Assembly (NCBI GenBank): GCA_021158465.1
Contig: JAGGUN010000046.1
Span: forward strand, 1-20,320
Direction: 5' to 3'
Origin: a bacterium
Lineage (GTDB): Bacteria > UBP14 > UBA6098 > 4484-93
Length of the DNA: 20,320 nt
The notes under the pieces were generated by a model, which was not told the DNA's origin, ran no database searches, and worked only from the letters and a program-made list of their open reading frames with translations. The position numbers and the translations under genes were made by a program. Below are positions 11,266-20,319 of this stretch, in pieces (the first letter of the stretch is position 1; every line of letters starts with the position of its first letter).

Positions 11266-12245
11266 CCCTTAATATCGGATAGAAGTTTATCTATGATATC
11301 ATCCGTCGTTATCCCCTCTGCCTCAGCGGAGAATGTCCTTATTAGGCGGTGTCTTAGGACGGGCTTTGCGAGGAAGCGGATGTCATCAATATTCGGAGTT
11401 GGGCGACCGTTCATTGCGGCATAGGCTTTTCCGCCGAGAATCAGAAACTGGCTTGCCCTCGGGCTCGCTCCCCAGCGTATCCATTTCTTGATGTACTCGA
11501 ATTGCGTCGACTCAGGGCGTGTGGCTGAGACAAGTTTGACAGCATATTCCATAACAAAATCGGATACAGGAACTCGCCTGATAAGCTTTTGCATCTTTAT
11601 CACCTGTTCTGCACTCAGGACCTTATCTATCTTTGCCTCAACTGGTCCTGTTGTCCGCTTGACAATGTCTTGCTCCTCCTTTAACGATGGATAAGTGATG
11701 TATGTGTTGAGCATAAACCTGTCGAGTTGAGCCTCCGGCAGAGGATATGTTCCCTCTTGTTCAATGGGGTTCTGTGTGGCAAGAACGAAGAACGGGTCGT
11801 CAAGTTTGTATGTTGTATCGCCCGCTGTAACCTTATGTTCTTGCATTGCTTCGAGGAGTGCTGCCTGTGTCTTTGGAGGCGTTCGGTTTATCTCATCTGC
11901 GAGGATGATATTGGCGAATATAGGTCCTGCGATGAACTTAAAGAAACGCTCGCCCGTTGAGCGGTTCTCTTCCAGAACCTCTGTCCCTGTGATATCAGAC
12001 GGCATAAGGTCTGGTGTAAATTGGATGCGTGAGAATTTCAAGTCGAGTGTCTCGGCAAGTGTCGATATTAACATCGTCTTGGCGAGCCCCGGAACACCGA
12101 TTAAAAGCGAATGCCCTCCGGATAGAAGCGTTACCAAAACCTCTGTTATCACCTGCTCCTGCCCTACAATCCGTTTCGCTATCTCAGCCCTTATCCTCTC
12201 GACGGATTCTCCAAGTTTCTGGATGCTTTCGTAATCTTCTTTCAC
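11262..12245 (-). CDS. MoxR-family AAA+ ATPase
   Basis: A 327-residue AAA+ ATPase of the MoxR class, known to act as a chaperone or cofactor-insertion factor for complexes containing VWA-domain partners. It shows Walker A GVPGLAKT (50-57), the MoxR-typical FTPDLMPSDITG (76-87), Walker B IILADEINR (113-121), sensor 1 ATQNP (156-160) and EAQLDRF (171-177) with a probable arginine finger. The C-terminal lid has GASPRASQFLILGGKAYA. Length is normal. The start is GTG at 12245 with a strong GGGG ribosome site 4 nt upstream (12250-12253). It is the first gene of the operon MoxR, DUF763, DUF58, BatA-like, BsuPI lipoprotein. Confidence 0.95.
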   Translation of the reverse strand: MKEDYESIQKLGESVERIRAEIAKRIVGQEQVITEVLVTLLSGGHSLLIGVPGLAKTMLISTLAETLDLKFSRIQFTPDLMPSDITGTEVLEENRSTGERFFKFIAGPIFANIILADEINRTPPKTQAALLEAMQEHKVTAGDTTYKLDDPFFVLATQNPIEQEGTYPLPEAQLDRFMLNTYITYPSLKEEQDIVKRTTGPVEAKIDKVLSAEQVIKMQKLIRRVPVSDFVMEYAVKLVSATRPESTQFEYIKKWIRWGASPRASQFLILGGKAYAAMNGRPTPNIDDIRFLAKPVLRHRLIRTFSAEAEGITTDDIIDKLLSDIKG

Positions 12246-12295
12246 GCTTCCCCCTTTGATTATTTCTCAAAATGAATAATTTATCAAGATCTACT

Positions 12296-12317
12296 GAAAA
12301 ACCAAACGGTATTTTGG
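12296..12317 (-). terminator. Candidate terminator after trmO
   Basis: On the minus strand CCAAA (12317-12313), a 6-nt loop and TTTGG (12306-12302) are followed at once by six Ts (12301-12296), about 30 nt after the trmO stop. The short stem with only two GC pairs makes it weak. The rest of the 99-bp gap before moxR holds no gene. Confidence 0.4.
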
Positions 12318-12344
12318 ACCTGGTGCCGGTCTGAACGGATAATG

Positions 12345-12824
12345 CTATTTTATAATGGTTTCATCCGGGATATTCCCGTTTTTGAAGTGCTTATCCAGCC
12401 AACCCGAGATGACATTGCTCCGACTATCGAAATATTTTACATAAGGTTTTATATCAAGTAACGGCGTTTCATCAAGCATATCTACTTCCGTAAAGTACAT
12501 TTTGTTTCCCTCGATTCGTTCGATTTTCACAACGGAAAGCCCTATATGGTTAGGGCGATGAGGGCTTCTTATAGCAAATATTCCGTGTTTCTCCTGCTCG
12601 AGGAACGGTCTCCCTTCAATATCCTCTCTGTGTGACCTGTGAAAATAGTATATTAATATGGCATGGCTAAATTTATCCAGGTCCTTCAAGCCAGGAACAT
12701 ATTTATCTTTCAGTTCAATCCACGCCTTAATATTATTCTTAAAAGTTCCCTGTATGGGAATGTCTCTGGCTTCTTTATAAGGTGAGTGAATTATCCCGAT
12801 TGGATGCATTATTATCCTGTTCAT
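12345..12824 (-). CDS. trmO: tRNA (N6-threonylcarbamoyladenosine37-N6)-methyltransferase TrmO
   Basis: TrmO (TsaA/YaeB, UPF0066 family) methylates t6A at position 37 of certain tRNAs using SAM, through an unusual all-beta fold rather than a Rossmann fold. Diagnostic stretches are HPIGIIHSPYK at the N-terminus, LDKFSHAILIYYFHRS, the SAM-binding FAIRSPHRPNHIGLSVV, and the DMLDETPLLDIKPYV block. The family usually has DGTP where this protein has DETP. The protein is ~159 residues, the single-domain length. The start at 12824 (MNRIIMHPIG) keeps the first beta strand. An ATG at 12809 has a better ribosome site (AGGA, 5 nt upstream) and is a real alternative, while a longer frame to 12899 lacks family similarity. 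It follows the asparaginase gene in the same direction and probably shares its transcript. Base composition is visibly AT-richer than kdsA or gyrB. Confidence 0.88.
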   Translation of the reverse strand: MNRIIMHPIGIIHSPYKEARDIPIQGTFKNNIKAWIELKDKYVPGLKDLDKFSHAILIYYFHRSHREDIEGRPFLEQEKHGIFAIRSPHRPNHIGLSVVKIERIEGNKMYFTEVDMLDETPLLDIKPYVKYFDSRSNVISGWLDKHFKNGNIPDETIIK

Positions 12825-12912
12825 AGCGGTTTTACTGCTGCTAACACGAAAATCTGATGCTTGCGAGTGAACTCCTGTTGCCTCTCCATATAATAGCACT
12901 CAGGTAGGTCAG

Positions 12913-13422
12913 CTATGTCGAGGGGCAGGAGGTTTGATTTATCTCTTCAAACCTGCCTTTCTGTTTGTTTTTTCTGACATTATCCCAGCGAAAGTATTTG
13001 CCGTTCATAGAGATATAAACCCCCGTAGGAAGGGTTTGGACGAATGCCAAGGAACTTCCCAGGTTGAATAGCCCGTCGGAGCTACCGAATGTATAGGGAA
13101 TCATTGCGCCAGTTAAGACGATTGTTTTATCTCTTATAGACTTGCCGAGGACCCTGGCAGTTTCTACCATTGTATCGGTACCGTGGATAATCAGGATCTT
13201 ATCTTCTCTTGCTTTTTTACACTCTTCAAGAATTTTTTCCCTATCGGCGTCTGTCATATCCAAGCTATCGACCATCATTAGAGTTTTGATATCGACTTTT
13301 AGCCCACAACGCCCCAGTTTCAGCATCTCAGGCAGGTGAGTATCCTTGAAGAAGAGCTTTCCACTGATTTCGTCGTACTCCTTGTCGAAGGTACCGCCTG
13401 TGACAAAGATTTTGATTGTCAT
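12913..13422 (-). CDS. Short, one-domain asparaginase homologue
   Basis: A 169-residue protein corresponding to the N-terminal domain of type I/II L-asparaginases, which hydrolyse asparagine to aspartate and ammonia. The catalytic set of the large enzymes appears complete: Thr11 in TGGTFD, Thr82-Asp83 in HGTDTM, and Lys151 in DNVRKN, which aligns with Lys162 of E. coli asparaginase II. GAMIPYTFGSSDGLFNL (105-121) is also typical. The C-terminal domain of ~130 residues present in classical enzymes is absent, and the ending is natural because the gene reaches an ordinary stop. Similar short asparaginase-domain proteins are known in other bacteria with little characterised function. ATG at 13422 has GAG 5-7 nt upstream and a strong promoter ~30 bp before it. 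trmO follows after ~90 bp. Confidence 0.82.
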   Translation of the reverse strand: MTIKIFVTGGTFDKEYDEISGKLFFKDTHLPEMLKLGRCGLKVDIKTLMMVDSLDMTDADREKILEECKKAREDKILIIHGTDTMVETARVLGKSIRDKTIVLTGAMIPYTFGSSDGLFNLGSSLAFVQTLPTGVYISMNGKYFRWDNVRKNKQKGRFEEINQTSCPST

Positions 13423-13452
13423 AATTTCTCAGTTCTGGTATCAAGCCAACCT

Positions 13453-13480
13453 AATATAATTGGATGGCTACTGTTGTCAA
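13453..13480 (-). promoter_or_regulatory. Strong sigma70-type promoter of the asparaginase-trmO genes
   Basis: On the minus strand a consensus TTGACA (13480-13475), a 16-bp spacer and TATATT (13458-13453) sit about 30 bp upstream of the asparaginase ATG, with a T6 run just upstream of the -35 element. The -35 and spacer lie in copy 1 of the 35-bp repeat. Confidence 0.65.
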
Positions 13481-13490
13481 CCAGAAAAAA
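13456..13490 (+). repeat. 35-bp direct repeat, copy 1 (downstream side of the methyltransferase)
   Basis: Matches 14360-14394 at 34 of 35 positions (the difference is A at 13464 versus G at 14368). The core is GGCTACTGTTGTCAACCAG followed by A6. The match stops abruptly at both ends. The copies are 904 bp apart and bracket only the methyltransferase gene and its probable terminator. Confidence 0.95.
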
Positions 13491-13525
13491 GAGCCGTCTC
13501 GGAGCTATCGGATACCTGTCGAGAC
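13485..13525 (-). terminator. Probable terminator of the methyltransferase gene
   Basis: On the minus strand GTCTCG (13525-13520) pairs with CGAGAC (13501-13496) around an 18-nt loop that has a small inner TAT/ATA stem. A T6 run (13490-13485) follows five bases later. The T-run belongs to the 35-bp repeat, so the repeat would serve as both the terminator tail of one gene and the upstream part of the next gene's promoter. Confidence 0.45.
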
Positions 13526-13526
13526 A

Positions 13527-14309
13527 CTATGGTTTTTTGTAGACTCCTATAACATAACCGCTGTAATATTTGGAATTGAGCCTTCTGAATATCCTGAAAG
13601 GTCGACTGTTAAAGCAAAAGCATAGCAACTTCACAACTGTTAGCAATATGAGGTTAGAGAAGCTCTTTTTCTCGCAGGTATGCAGTATACCTGGTTCAAA
13701 GCCTCCGATGTACCCCTTGAACAACGGCTTTAGTTTGAACTTTTCCTCGAAACTTTTCCAATTGGAGATATCCATGGCGGATAGGTTGTGTTTGTAGAGC
13801 CTCTGTGGAGCTAATCTCTTTAAGAACCAGTGATTTATACCTCTAAGATTGGGAGCGCCAATCAGCAGTATGCCACCAGGTTTCAATAGTTCCAAGTGTT
13901 TCTGAATAACCGTGTCAAGATCTGAAAAATGCTCTATAAACCCCAGAGAATATACTATATCAAATGATGGAAGGTTAAGCTCCTTAGAGAATATATCCTC
14001 TTGATACACATTTCCTCTGATATTTAAGAGCTTGAAGTTCTCTTTCGTTTTTTTGCACCCTATTTCTGAATAATCCAGGCAGTGGACCTCGTATCCGAAA
14101 TTGCTATGCATATAGGCTAGGTATTGCCCTGGAGCACCACCGATCTCCAATATAGATAGCTGCTCGTTTTTGGGCATATACTTGTCAAAGATGCTCAGTA
14201 TCTCGTTCAGGTAAGGGGTCTTGGGGGATTTCTTGATCTCTACTGGCAAGGAGATCTTTTCCCAACAGTTGTCCCAGTAAGCTCGCTTGGTTAATTTGCG
14301 AATCCCCAT
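13527..14309 (-). CDS. Class I SAM-dependent methyltransferase
   Basis: A 260-residue methyltransferase with a seven-strand Rossmann fold. Motif I is ILEIGGAPGQY (53-63), the SAM-ribose acidic residue is Asp79 in VHCLDYS, motif IV is FDIVYSLGFIEHF (116-128), and LLKPGGILLIGAPN (141-154) is the post-motif strand. An N-terminal KRAYWDNCWEK leads in, and the C-terminal ~60 residues are basic and hydrophobic. The substrate is not predictable; enzymes of this type often modify sugars, lipids or small molecules, and kdsA next door makes a cell-envelope role conceivable but unproven. The start at 14309 is chosen because GGGGAG (14321-14316) lies 6 nt upstream; a longer frame to 14384 would read through the promoter repeat. 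The gene looks AT-richer than kdsA or gyrB, and its flanks are direct repeats, consistent with acquisition as a cassette. Confidence 0.85.
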   Translation of the reverse strand: MGIRKLTKRAYWDNCWEKISLPVEIKKSPKTPYLNEILSIFDKYMPKNEQLSILEIGGAPGQYLAYMHSNFGYEVHCLDYSEIGCKKTKENFKLLNIRGNVYQEDIFSKELNLPSFDIVYSLGFIEHFSDLDTVIQKHLELLKPGGILLIGAPNLRGINHWFLKRLAPQRLYKHNLSAMDISNWKSFEEKFKLKPLFKGYIGGFEPGILHTCEKKSFSNLILLTVVKLLCFCFNSRPFRIFRRLNSKYYSGYVIGVYKKP

Positions 14310-14356
14310 AAACTTCTCCCCGGATCTGTAAGGCTGTGCTCCCGTTCTATTGTCCC

Positions 14357-14384
14357 AAGATAATTGGGTGGCTACTGTTGTCAA
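14357..14384 (-). promoter_or_regulatory. Promoter of the methyltransferase gene, within repeat copy 2
   Basis: On the minus strand TTGACA (14384-14379), a 16-bp spacer and TATCTT (14362-14357) are followed by a leader of about 40 nt to the start codon. The -35 and spacer match copy 1, but the -10 continues into unique sequence and is a poorer match to consensus than TATATT in copy 1. Confidence 0.55.
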
Positions 14385-14394
14385 CCAGAAAAAA
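14360..14394 (+). repeat. 35-bp direct repeat, copy 2 (upstream side of the methyltransferase)
   Basis: Partner of 13456-13490 with one mismatch and the same orientation. It lies in the divergent intergenic region between the methyltransferase and kdsA. Confidence 0.95.
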
Positions 14395-14397
14395 CGC

Positions 14398-14425
14398 TTG
14401 ATTGGCTGAGAAAACGGAGTAAATT
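14398..14425 (+). promoter_or_regulatory. Candidate kdsA promoter
   Basis: TTGATT (14398-14403), a 16-bp spacer and TAAATT (14420-14425) would start transcription near 14432, ahead of the G-rich ribosome site at 14442-14447. Both hexamers are imperfect; position is the main support. Confidence 0.3.
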
Positions 14426-14451
14426 ATTGGTAGCCATCTTAGGGGGGAAGA

Positions 14452-15255
14452 GTGATAAGGCTAAAAAATATTACCATTGGTAGGGATTTCTTCATTGTTG
14501 CTGGACCCTGCTCGCTTGAGTCGGAGGATGTTGCCATCTCCGTTGCGGAGGAGCTCGGTAGATTAGAGAAGGAATATAACATTCCTTTCATTTTCAAAGG
14601 GTCTTACAAGAAGGCTAATAGGCTCTCGGCTACCTCCTATCGAGGTCCAGGAATGGATAAAGGAATGCGGATACTTTCTCTTGTGAAGGAGAAGTACGGT
14701 TTCCCTGTTCTCACGGATATTCATACCCCTAATGAGGCGAAGCCTGTGTCGGAGGTTGCCGATATTATCCAGATACCGGCATTCCTGTGCCGGCAGACAG
14801 AGCTTATCGAGTCGGCTGCAAGGACTGGTAAACCGATAAATATCAAGAAGGGGCAATTCCTCTCGCCCGAGGATATGAGATTCGCGGCAGAGAAGGCAAA
14901 GCTGGTTGGCAACGATAATGTCATCTTCACCGAACGGGGGACATTCTTTGGGTATCGTGACCTTGTTGTCGATTTTCGCTCAATCATCATTATGAAGTCG
15001 CTTGGATACCCTGTCCTGTTCGATGCAACGCACTCATTCCAGACACCAGGCGGCAGGGGAGGGTCATCCGGCGGAAGAAGGGATTTCTCCATTCCTTTTG
15101 CGAAAGTGGCGGCTGTTCTGGGTGTGGATGGGATATACATTGAGACGCATCCAACCCCTGATGAGGCGTTATCGGATAGCGCTGTTATGCTCCCGCTCCA
15201 TAGTATGGAGAGACTCGTTGCTGAACTGAGAAAAATTTTAAGCATAAGGGAGTAA
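14452..15255 (+). CDS. kdsA: 3-deoxy-8-phosphooctulonate synthase (Kdo-8-P synthase)
   Basis: Condenses phosphoenolpyruvate with arabinose-5-phosphate to Kdo-8-phosphate, the precursor of the Kdo sugar that joins lipid A to the LPS core; cytoplasmic. The motifs AGPCSLES (17-24), KGSYKKANR, TDIHTPNEA, IIQIPAFLCRQTEL, NIKKGQFLSPEDM, FGYRDLVVDFRS and FDATHSFQTPGG identify the enzyme unambiguously. Cys20 in AGPCS marks the metal-dependent class; E. coli-type metal-independent enzymes have Asn at this position. The other metal ligands also look present: His in ATHS, Glu in YIETHP and Asp in ALSD. The protein has 267 residues, a normal length. GTG at 14452 has a GGGGGG ribosome site 4 nt upstream. 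The M14 peptidase gene starts 5 bp after the stop, with its ribosome site inside the kdsA end, so the two are probably co-transcribed. Confidence 0.97.
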   Translation: MIRLKNITIGRDFFIVAGPCSLESEDVAISVAEELGRLEKEYNIPFIFKGSYKKANRLSATSYRGPGMDKGMRILSLVKEKYGFPVLTDIHTPNEAKPVSEVADIIQIPAFLCRQTELIESAARTGKPINIKKGQFLSPEDMRFAAEKAKLVGNDNVIFTERGTFFGYRDLVVDFRSIIIMKSLGYPVLFDATHSFQTPGGRGGSSGGRRDFSIPFAKVAAVLGVDGIYIETHPTPDEALSDSAVMLPLHSMERLVAELRKILSIRE

Positions 15256-15260
15256 ATAAT

Positions 15261-17594
15261 ATGAAGCGGATTTCTCTGCTGGTGTTCTTTGTTTTTGCAT
15301 TATTTTCTTCCGTTTTCTCACAGTCGCTTGTCAGGGTTTACACAACGGATGTGCAGATCCTTTCGCATCTCGATGTGGCATCCGTTCGACCGGGTGCCTA
15401 TGCCGATGTTGTGCTGTGGGAGAAGGATAAGGAGTATCTGTTATCTACTGGAGTGGATTACAAACTGCTGATAGATGACCTGCCGGGGTATTATGCCTCA
15501 CGGCTTGACCCCACGCTTTCTATGGGTGGATATCACACATATTCCGAGGCTGTCGCCTGGCTCGATTCGATATATAATGAGCACCCGGATATTGTCTTGC
15601 CGCCGGAGTCGATCGGGTACAGCTGTGAGGGCAGAGCAGTTTACATGATAAAGATTTCCGATAACCCGACTGTCGATGAGGATGAGCCTGAGCTGCTCTA
15701 TGATGCAATGCACCACGCGAGGGAACCGGGTAGTATGGAGATCCTTCTGTATTTCATCTCTTATCTTCTTGACAACTATGGGATATCCGATGATGCCACA
15801 TATCTTGTGAACAACAGGGAGTTGTTCTTCATTCCGATAGTCAATCCCGACGGCTATGTCTACAACGAGCTGACGAACCCCGGGGGTGGTGGTATGTGGC
15901 GTAAGAACCGCAGGAACAACGGTGATGGCACATTCGGTGTTGACCTGAACAGGAACTACTCCTATATGTGGGGTTATGATGACGAGGGGTCATCGCCTAA
16001 CCCGGCTGATGAGACTTACAGGGGATTAGGACCGTTCTCCGAGCCAGAAACGCAGGCAATGAGGGATTTCTATGCTGAACACAACATACTGTTAAACCTA
16101 TCATATCACACATATTCAGCAATGTATCTTTCTCCTTGGGGGTACACAGCCGACACCTGCGCCGACCACTCTAAATTTATGGAGATGATGCAGCTCTTCT
16201 CGAAGGAGAACCATTATGTATATGGTCCGGGTGCTACCGCTATATATCTGACCAATGGAGACGCAAACGACTGGGCTTACGGTGACACAATAACCAAGCC
16301 GAGGGTGCTTTCGGTTACCCCTGAGGCAGGATCAGGTGAGGATGGTTTCTGGCCTCCGACCGAGCGAATTATACCTATAAACCAGGATAACCTGCCAGCG
16401 AACATAAGGCTTGCCTATATGGCTGTCTCATATGTACACTACGGTGATATTGTTATATTCGATTCGCTCGGAAACGAAAACGGCTTCTTTGACCCTGGGG
16501 AAACGCTTTCTGTCTCCTGTCGAGTTAGGAACTGCGGACTGGGAACGAGCCGTGAGGTCATAGGAAGAATAGTTTCTGCTTCACCTCACATCGAGGTTAT
16601 CAGGGATTCTGTGCTGTGGAGCCCGGTGGGCTCGTTTGAGAGCTCCGAGTACGAAAGCTTTCTCGTGTATCTTTCCAATGACGCGGAGCGGGGAGCAGTT
16701 GCAAGGATTATCTTATCCTGCACGGAGGGGATAGGGTATGTGGAGCAGGAGACGGTTTCTTTTATCATCGGAACGCCAGAGACCCTTTTTGCCGAGAGTT
16801 TCGATGGGTCGGGCGATGACTTCTTTGTTGTCTCAGGCAGCGAATGGCAGAGGGGGGTTCCTGTTGCCGATGTAGGCTCGCATTCATCTCCAAATGTCTG
16901 GGCAACGGTGCTTTCGGGTGACTACCACGATAGGCAGACAGCGGTTTTGTCATCGCCTGTTGTCCATCTCGATAGCACCGCAAAATATCTTTCCTTCTGG
17001 CATTGGTATGACTTCGAATACGACGGAGTCTGCTATGATGGCGGCAATGTAAAGATAGTTGTTGATGGTGGAACGCCTGTTCTCTTGAGTCCGCTCACAG
17101 GATACACTGGGATCTTCTACGAACACAGCAGTATGGCAGGAGATTCCTGCTTTTCTGGTGTGTCAAACGGCTGGAAGAATGTAATGTTTGACATATCTGC
17201 CTACTGCGGTGAGGATGTCAGGTTCTTATTCTCTTTTTGCTCCGATAATTATGTGCACCATCTGGGCTGGTATATAGATGACTTCGCCGTGATTGGTTAT
17301 ACCGCTGCATCCGTTGAGGCAGAAGAGAGAATAGCTCTATCGTCATCTCTTGGACTCTCTGTATCGCCAAATCCGTTTAACTCGCGCCTTATGATAAATA
17401 TTTTGGGCAACTCGGATGGGGAACACACGGTAACCATAAAGAATATCCTTGGTGAAACGGTTGTTGTGGAAAGGTTGCCGGCTGGGGTGAAAAGTTTCTC
17501 TTATGAGCCGAGAGCAGGAGGTTCAGGGGTGTATTTTGTCACCCTCACCGACGGCGAATGTTCGGTCACAAAGAAGGTTGTGTATCTGAAATAA
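15261..17594 (+). CDS. Secreted M14 zinc carboxypeptidase with C-terminal sorting domain
   Basis: A 777-residue exported metallopeptidase. A signal peptide (residues 1-20, cleaved before Gln21) is followed by a short propeptide-like region and an M14 catalytic domain (~90-395). Zinc ligands are His152 and Glu155 in HHAREP and His283 in LSYHTYS; the catalytic Glu355 is in TPEAG. MWRKNRRNN (212-220) and DLNRNY (228-233) are substrate-binding stretches of the family. A beta-sandwich region (~400-520) and a MAM/immune-inhibitor-A-like lectin-fold domain (~530-690, ending GWYIDDFAVIGY) come next. The last ~76 residues, beginning SPNPFNS and ending GVYFVTLTDGE...KKVVYLK, resemble the type A C-terminal sorting domains used by type IX secretion or the related FlgD-like fold. 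It likely digests extracellular protein or peptides. AAGGGAG at 15246-15252 is the ribosome site and overlaps the kdsA 3' end. Confidence 0.9.
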   Translation: MKRISLLVFFVFALFSSVFSQSLVRVYTTDVQILSHLDVASVRPGAYADVVLWEKDKEYLLSTGVDYKLLIDDLPGYYASRLDPTLSMGGYHTYSEAVAWLDSIYNEHPDIVLPPESIGYSCEGRAVYMIKISDNPTVDEDEPELLYDAMHHAREPGSMEILLYFISYLLDNYGISDDATYLVNNRELFFIPIVNPDGYVYNELTNPGGGGMWRKNRRNNGDGTFGVDLNRNYSYMWGYDDEGSSPNPADETYRGLGPFSEPETQAMRDFYAEHNILLNLSYHTYSAMYLSPWGYTADTCADHSKFMEMMQLFSKENHYVYGPGATAIYLTNGDANDWAYGDTITKPRVLSVTPEAGSGEDGFWPPTERIIPINQDNLPANIRLAYMAVSYVHYGDIVIFDSLGNENGFFDPGETLSVSCRVRNCGLGTSREVIGRIVSASPHIEVIRDSVLWSPVGSFESSEYESFLVYLSNDAERGAVARIILSCTEGIGYVEQETVSFIIGTPETLFAESFDGSGDDFFVVSGSEWQRGVPVADVGSHSSPNVWATVLSGDYHDRQTAVLSSPVVHLDSTAKYLSFWHWYDFEYDGVCYDGGNVKIVVDGGTPVLLSPLTGYTGIFYEHSSMAGDSCFSGVSNGWKNVMFDISAYCGEDVRFLFSFCSDNYVHHLGWYIDDFAVIGYTAASVEAEERIALSSSLGLSVSPNPFNSRLMINILGNSDGEHTVTIKNILGETVVVERLPAGVKSFSYEPRAGGSGVYFVTLTDGECSVTKKVVYLK

Positions 17595-17635
17595 TTTGTG
17601 AGGATTGCTAATATCAGGATAAAAAAGGGGGAAAA

Positions 17636-18532
17636 ATGAGAAAGGTTCTGGTAATTTCTGTTCTGTTTTTGTTCCTTCTGTCAGGATGCGTCGGCGAGAA
17701 GCACCTGACGGGTGATATAATTGTTCAGGGAACGAGGTTATCTTATGCGCCGTCCGTTGGTGATACGCTTTCGTACAAGTCGTCGAGTGATGTTGTAACC
17801 GAGTTCAGCGAGAAGGGGTATAGCAAGCGTATCCACAGGAAGAGCGATTCCTGGACGAGATTCATTACAGAGAGGCTCAATGAAAACGGTTCAATCAGTT
17901 TTAGGGTATTGTTTGATAGGTATGAGGGGAGTATAATTGAGAACGGCACGATGAAGCCGGATACGAGCCAGAACGAGCTTGTTGGTGACTATCTCGCCAT
18001 AGTTGTCGATAGTTCGGGGCAGATGGTTGACTGGAACGGGCTGGACAATGTCGGTATGGATGAATCTGGTGTCGATAGAGGGGAGGCTATTGCGAACGGC
18101 TACGCAACGCATCAGATAGAATACTTTCCAGCAAGAAATTTGAAAATCGGAGATACCTGGCAAAAGGTCGTCAATACGAACACAACCACGCGCGACGGTG
18201 TTGCTACGAACAAGACGGTCAAAAATTATACCCTCAAGGATTTTGTAGAGTATAGTGGGCATCGCTGTGCAAAGATTGAAACGAAGGTTACTGTTACCGT
18301 AACAGGCAGCGGAACGACCGAACAGGAAGGAGAAACATACTCCTACGAAGTAGCAGGCAAGGGCGACGGCAAAGGGGTGCTGTATTTTGATTTCGAGAGG
18401 GGGTGTGTGGTGAAGAATGAAATCTCTTGGATGATAGAGTTCACTATCGACCAGATAAACGAATCCACCGGCGAACACCAGCAGGTTACCTACTACGAGG
18501 AGGACAGAACAAAGACAGAACTTCTTGAATAA
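17636..18532 (+). CDS. Predicted lipoprotein of unknown function
   Basis: A 298-residue protein with a clear lipoprotein signal (MRKVLVISVLFLFLLSGC, Cys18 in the lipobox LSGC) and no other membrane segment, so it is probably attached to a membrane and faces the periplasm. The mature part is beta-strand rich, with many Thr/Ser/Tyr/Glu residues and motifs such as LKIGDTWQK and GKGVLYFDFERGCVVKNE. This layout recalls lipoproteins in which a strand-rich domain ends with a comparison of time-zero and bound states in DUF6263-like families, but I cannot assign a family firmly. The ribosome site GGGGG lies 5 nt before the ATG. The gene starts 41 bp after the peptidase and may be transcribed with it. 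It ends convergently with nfnB, leaving a 45-bp gap without a convincing terminator. Confidence 0.8.
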   Translation: MRKVLVISVLFLFLLSGCVGEKHLTGDIIVQGTRLSYAPSVGDTLSYKSSSDVVTEFSEKGYSKRIHRKSDSWTRFITERLNENGSISFRVLFDRYEGSIIENGTMKPDTSQNELVGDYLAIVVDSSGQMVDWNGLDNVGMDESGVDRGEAIANGYATHQIEYFPARNLKIGDTWQKVVNTNTTTRDGVATNKTVKNYTLKDFVEYSGHRCAKIETKVTVTVTGSGTTEQEGETYSYEVAGKGDGKGVLYFDFERGCVVKNEISWMIEFTIDQINESTGEHQQVTYYEEDRTKTELLE

Positions 18533-18577
18533 TAGAATTAAATGTTGTAACTTGCCAAAATCGGTGAGTTTTGCGCA

Positions 18578-20319
<1,742 letters not shown>

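Follow-up and report, generated by a model that had tools for sequence, protein, structure and literature searches.

A methyltransferase gene bracketed by a duplicated promoter between kdsA and trmO in an uncultured bacterium

The described processes closest to the locus reported here each share part of its organization. In homologous or homology-facilitated illegitimate gene acquisition within an existing transcription unit, the flanks of the foreign gene are conserved, homology is short at one of its junctions and longer at the other, and mobility genes are absent; our locus is alike in these respects but differs in that the resident promoter is duplicated, with one copy each for the newcomer and the downstream unit. 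Campbell-type single-crossover integration gives the same homology-insert-homology geometry (a direct repeat), whereas here there are no vector or replication genes inside and the homology spans only 41 bp, which is very short for a RecA-dependent crossover. Integron gene cassettes also present a single promoterless-type gene behind a resident promoter, unlike the present locus, which has neither attC nor integrase, occupies a single site and has a repeat that is itself the promoter. The features of this locus are collected in Table 1, in the coordinates of the window (the whole 20,320-nucleotide contig that was analyzed).

Table 1. Features of the interval between kdsA and trmO, with the basis of each assignment.
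Feature	Positions	Strand	Basis
trmO, right-hand anchor of the slot	12345..12830	-	congener comparison
trmO leader (95% identity to the congener); collinearity ends here on the trmO side	12824..12885	-	BLASTN
Short-chain (single-domain) L-asparaginase, predicted, 169 aa, RrA-like	12913..13422	-	PDB matches, catalytic residues
Promoter copy 1 (probable duplicate)	13450..13490	-	repeat and promoter scan; 38/41 identical to copy 2
Terminator-like hairpin, weak	13491..13526	-	sequence; folding z -0.04
Class I SAM-dependent methyltransferase, 260 aa, putatively inserted gene	13527..14309	-	Pfam; Bacteroidota MAG relatives
Promoter copy 2 (kdsA-proximal, probable resident)	14354..14394	-	repeat and promoter scan; orthologous single copy in the congener (G001 C5:4281-4316)
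kdsA, anchor on the left, oriented divergently from the slot	14452..15255	+	congener comparison

The initial annotation had described a 35-bp direct repeat with one mismatch, and this was confirmed: the copies at 13456-13490 and 14360-14394 are 34/35 identical, in the same orientation and spaced 904 bp apart. Allowing 3 mismatches lengthens the repeat to 41 bp (93% identity), and the longest exact run shared by the copies is 26 bp. The chance expectation for such a repeat pair in the 20-kb window is about 2e-11. When the 26-bp run was searched in the 2,044,102-base (2.04-Mb) genome with 3 mismatches allowed, only these two sites were found, and the 14-mer TTTTCTGGTTGACA, with at most 1 mismatch, again gave only these two sites genome-wide. 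The 35-mer likewise had no further copy in the genome, and a 23-mer of the repeat had no match in the viral contigs searched. A genome-wide scan for intergenic near-identical direct repeats bracketing genes gave about a dozen matches, among which the pair in the window was the sole 35-bp repeat bracketing a single gene; one other notable match, on contig C22, is described below. The duplicated-promoter locus is real, well-anchored and locus-specific.

On the minus strand, each copy consists of a T6 run, a consensus TTGACA, a 16-nt spacer and a -10 hexamer. Copy 2, with the methyltransferase gene downstream, has TTGACA at 14384-14379 and TATCTT at 14362-14357, and copy 1, with the asparaginase-trmO genes downstream, has TTGACA at 13480-13475 and TATATT at 13458-13453. 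These elements, which had been annotated by inspection of the sequence, were recovered by a minus-strand promoter scan of positions 12800-14520, in which copy 1 scored 11/12 and copy 2 scored 10/12, the top two among five matches. By consensus, both copies would be sigma-70-type promoters, and both are presumably active. An Rfam search of the slot between kdsA and trmO gave no match.

The hairpin that follows the methyltransferase gene has a 6-bp stem (GUCUCG/CGAGAC) and then GGCUCUUUUUU, with the T6 of copy 1 as its T-tract. The earlier description of a terminator-like hairpin with its T-run in copy 1 holds for the sequence, but the element folded no more stably than shuffled sequence and was not among the matches of a terminator scan; a terminator function is possible.

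The methyltransferase gene is the sole gene between the repeat copies, and its ATG at 14309 is preceded by a GGGGAG-like ribosome-binding site. The protein matched the Pfam families Methyltransf_11, 25, 12, 23 and 31, and it belongs to the Methyltransf_11/25 group with 47.9 bits relative to the curated cut-off of 21.2. The SAM-binding motif I, LEIGGAPGQY, is invariant in its two close relatives. The NCBIfam equivalogs UbiG (33.3 bits, 102.95 required) and BioC (32.5 bits, 184.95 required) were rejected. The mean pLDDT of the predicted structure was 65.5, and the structural matches were to the generic methyltransferase fold only, which points to no particular substrate.

The closest relatives found, in a pattern-based search with thin sampling, were two Bacteroidota MAG proteins (58% and 52%, full length). 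Good matches were absent from the congener and from 15 class members, in which the best were 24-36% over parts, and no relatives were found in phages, plasmids or viral contigs. The two Bacteroidota genes adjoin flippase and GT2 glycosyltransferase genes, and remoter relatives are likewise found among polysaccharide-type genes; these gene neighborhoods suggest a surface-glycan role for the methyltransferase. The promoter motif was present at none of the relatives fetched. Because the Bacteroidota relatives are in polysaccharide loci that do not have the promoter, the favored explanation is that the resident promoter captured a transferred gene, and the methyltransferase gene was, as judged from these comparisons, likely acquired by transfer without its own promoter.

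The gene had also been thought to be AT-richer than kdsA or gyrB, and its overall GC content was indeed 41.3% compared to 48.8 and 49.5%, respectively, or the 1.5th percentile of 1408 ORFs. In contrast, its GC3 (51.5%) was at the 29th percentile, and neither GC3 nor codon use set it apart from the asparaginase gene or the native trmO. Low GC was rejected as proof of a foreign origin because the GC3 is ordinary and the GC of trmO (39.3%) is lower still.

The same-genus comparison was to one genome, G001, about 80% complete, in which a 7.1-kb contig covers the locus and kdsA is 88% identical. BLASTN collinearity on the kdsA side extended over 14379-18670, stopping with the final base of the copy 2 -35 sequence, and on the other side it consisted of 12824-12885 and 11323-12825 (trmO leader, trmO and moxR). 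The differing segment, 12886-14378, contains the methyltransferase gene, copy 1 and the asparaginase gene in the window and asnA in the congener; the methyltransferase gene is missing from the kdsA-trmO locus of the congener. A single promoter precedes asnA, TTTTCTGGTTGACA-16-TATTTT, located at the kdsA-proximal site, and its -10 region ATTATTTTGG matches the ATTATCTTGG of copy 2, with equal 16-nt spacing. Because the congener has this single orthologous promoter, copy 2 appears to be the resident and copy 1 the duplicate. The spacers of copies 1 and 2 differ at 1/16 positions, in contrast to 11/16 between copy 2 and the congener (p = 0.0006), and therefore the duplication, or a later homogenization, is younger than the species split.

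This comparison of the intergenic region modified the initial interpretation of a single-gene insertion with a duplicated resident promoter. The locus-specific promoter with its kdsA-side copy in the congener, the absence of the gene there and the Bacteroidota relatives agree with it, but the asparaginase gene proved variable too: promoter, kdsA and trmO are common to the two genomes, whereas asnA occupies the differing segment in the congener. An asparaginase-trmO resident unit was thus abandoned, because the congener has asnA-trmO behind the same promoter. In the flanks fetched from the 15 further members of the class, each of the four genes (kdsA, trmO, asparaginase and asnA) is located elsewhere, and so these genomes do not polarize the event. 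No relative was found with an empty promoter-asparaginase-trmO arrangement, and with one congener, about 80% complete, the order of events is not polarized.

Four other observations concern the flanking genes. Positions 12690-12838, which cover the 5′ part of trmO and the bases immediately before it, match the congener without a single mismatch (about 150 bp), compared to about 12% divergence in the neighboring moxR; this is either a recombination tract or hidden constraint. In the congener, trmO is immediately preceded by 63 bp (L037 5584-5646) that contain a small hairpin and are absent from the window. A second, divergent trmO-like gene (35% identity) is present on another contig of the genome (C47 10761-11150), and the congener has one too. 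Adjoining kdsA, at 15261-17594, is a gene for an M14 zinc carboxypeptidase that carries, at its C terminus, a sorting domain of the Por-secretion type.

The asparaginase gene is not broken. Its product matches the short-chain RrA type along its entire length and has the catalytic residues. Its best PDB matches were RrA (8uoo, E 1e-36), with a full-length alignment, and it carries the catalytic Thr (GGT-F), Lys/Tyr (KEY), Thr-Asp (HGTDT) and C-terminal Lys. RrA-family enzymes consist of a single N-terminal-type domain with conserved Thr16, Lys19, Tyr21, Thr87 and Asp88 (PMC10949315), and by this definition the predicted protein is a member of the RrA-family short-chain L-asparaginases, being alike in its single domain and catalytic residues. 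Asparaginase was not found in the congener, nor asnA in the genome of the window, and so the two genes are mutually exclusive across the two congeneric genomes. The congener asnA encodes an aspartate-ammonia ligase, above the NCBIfam cut-off. It is 82-83% identical to asnA of another family in the class (L070, genome G015), the kdsA of which is only about 54% identical to that of the window; there is a hint that asnA was transferred within the class.

It is probable, in our judgment, that the kdsA-trmO stretch serves as a small slot for gene exchange, transcribed from a resident sigma-70-type promoter that is specific to this locus and lies immediately upstream of kdsA, and that after the split from the sister species a foreign methyltransferase gene was placed directly behind copy 2, with a copy of the resident promoter (copy 1) ending up between this gene and asparaginase-trmO. 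The methyltransferase and asparaginase-trmO units would each have gained their own promoter, and the T-run heading copy 1 may double as the U-tract of a methyltransferase terminator. The promoter-gene-promoter geometry is the expected outcome if, at the promoter, there was a single crossover, template switching or illegitimate joining. The likeliest route would be recombination at the promoter or an illegitimate joining there that resembles a template switch, although a single crossover with a circle bearing the promoter and the gene would give the same product. We infer that the methyltransferase gene is foreign and that the promoter was copied as the gene was inserted; the duplication and the insertion may also have been separate events.

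Neither a transposase gene nor terminal inverted repeats were found inside the duplicated ends; the only inverted pairs were chance-like and none of them was at the ends, and a reading by eye gave no attC-like GTTRRRY/RYYYAAC pair at the repeat. There were no tRNAs in the 20-kb contig, and no integrase gene among its ORFs as read. The absence of terminal inverted repeats, an attC-like pair and a recombinase gene disfavors transposition and integron-type insertion. A transposon with a target-site duplication was rejected because it would have neither transposase nor terminal inverted repeats, the only intervening ORF being the methyltransferase gene, and an integron cassette was rejected because there is no attC at the repeat and no integron integrase among the contig ORFs. 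The unusually long target duplication that had been offered as one mechanism is disfavored on the same grounds and on length, as 35-41 bp far exceeds known transposon target duplications.

An alternative that we regard as rather unlikely is that the methyltransferase gene, copy 1 and asparaginase arrived jointly, or that asnA replaced them in the sister species, by homologous recombination anchored in trmO and short promoter homology, in which case the repeat would come from a two-promoter donor or from later homogenization. The mutual exclusivity of asnA and asparaginase is consistent with such a block replacement, as is the 14-bp match ending at the -35 sequence at the kdsA-side break. Compared to the congener, identity is about 88% in moxR and increases to 98-100% in the slot-side half of trmO, and the four-fold sites that differ number 3/46 in trmO compared to 154/583 in kdsA, the M14 peptidase gene and moxR (p = 0.001); this resembles the end of a recent recombination tract and raises the standing of a whole-slot exchange, although the high trmO identity could reflect constraint or chance, the gene being short, and no donor with the locus-specific promoter in two copies was seen. 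With two genomes only, insertion and block replacement are inseparable.

The remaining explanations fare worse. Site-specific integration of a gene cassette, with the repeats as attL/attR-like sites, is geometrically compatible with 35-41 bp direct repeats flanking an insert, but it is improbable given that the repeat is conserved as a promoter in the congener, unlike a generic att core, and given the lack of an integrase gene among the ORFs of the 20-kb contig as read, of tRNAs there, of an attC-like pair at the repeat as read by eye and of other copies in the genome. As for an att core shared with an empty site, the congener carries the promoter once, followed by asnA. An assembly chimera, in which two strains or loci were joined at a common promoter, could be imagined because the assembly consists of 54 contigs, of which the window is one, and a repeat is present at each junction; it is highly unlikely because the copies differ at three places and share no exact run beyond 26 bp, so that any assembly step with k of at least 27 separates them, and because both flanks are collinear with the congener. 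Least credible are two independent promoters kept similar by a common regulator rather than by recent copying: the repeat does hold a near-palindrome (CTGGTTGACAACAG), but in the congener promoter conservation is limited to the -35 and -10 regions and does not include the spacer or the right half of the palindrome, and a 26-bp exact match across a non-conserved spacer is better explained by copying.

Elsewhere in the genome (contig C22, 10158-12163), a CitMHS/Na-sulfate-symporter-type transporter gene and a small gene lie between an SppA-like peptidase gene and cmk, bracketed by two elements of about 105 bp with terminal inverted repeats of about 16 bp, which are 82% alike and have only two copies genome-wide. 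The congener shows an empty site at this position, and the segment resembles a composite insertion with MITE-like elements at its two ends.

The locus is a fresh instance of known processes, namely gene acquisition into a promoter-led slot, and the unusual detail is the presence of the resident promoter on both sides of the acquired gene. Judged from titles, a literature search turned up no comparable case of a promoter duplicated along with an insertion. The locus illustrates how a newcomer gene could gain expression while the genes downstream of it escape silencing, through copying of the resident promoter to both sides. It may be, although we consider it unlikely, that in this genus the stretch from kdsA to trmO acts as a promoter-keyed exchange slot: incoming genes would recombine at the promoter and leave it in one copy on either side, which would give them immediate expression, spare the genes behind from silencing and allow clean deletion by recombination between the copies. 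If the slot does swap genes repeatedly, with asnA in one species and methyltransferase plus asparaginase in the other, and with repeats that predict clean excision, it would represent a simple, integrase-free form of gene turnover in an uncultured lineage.
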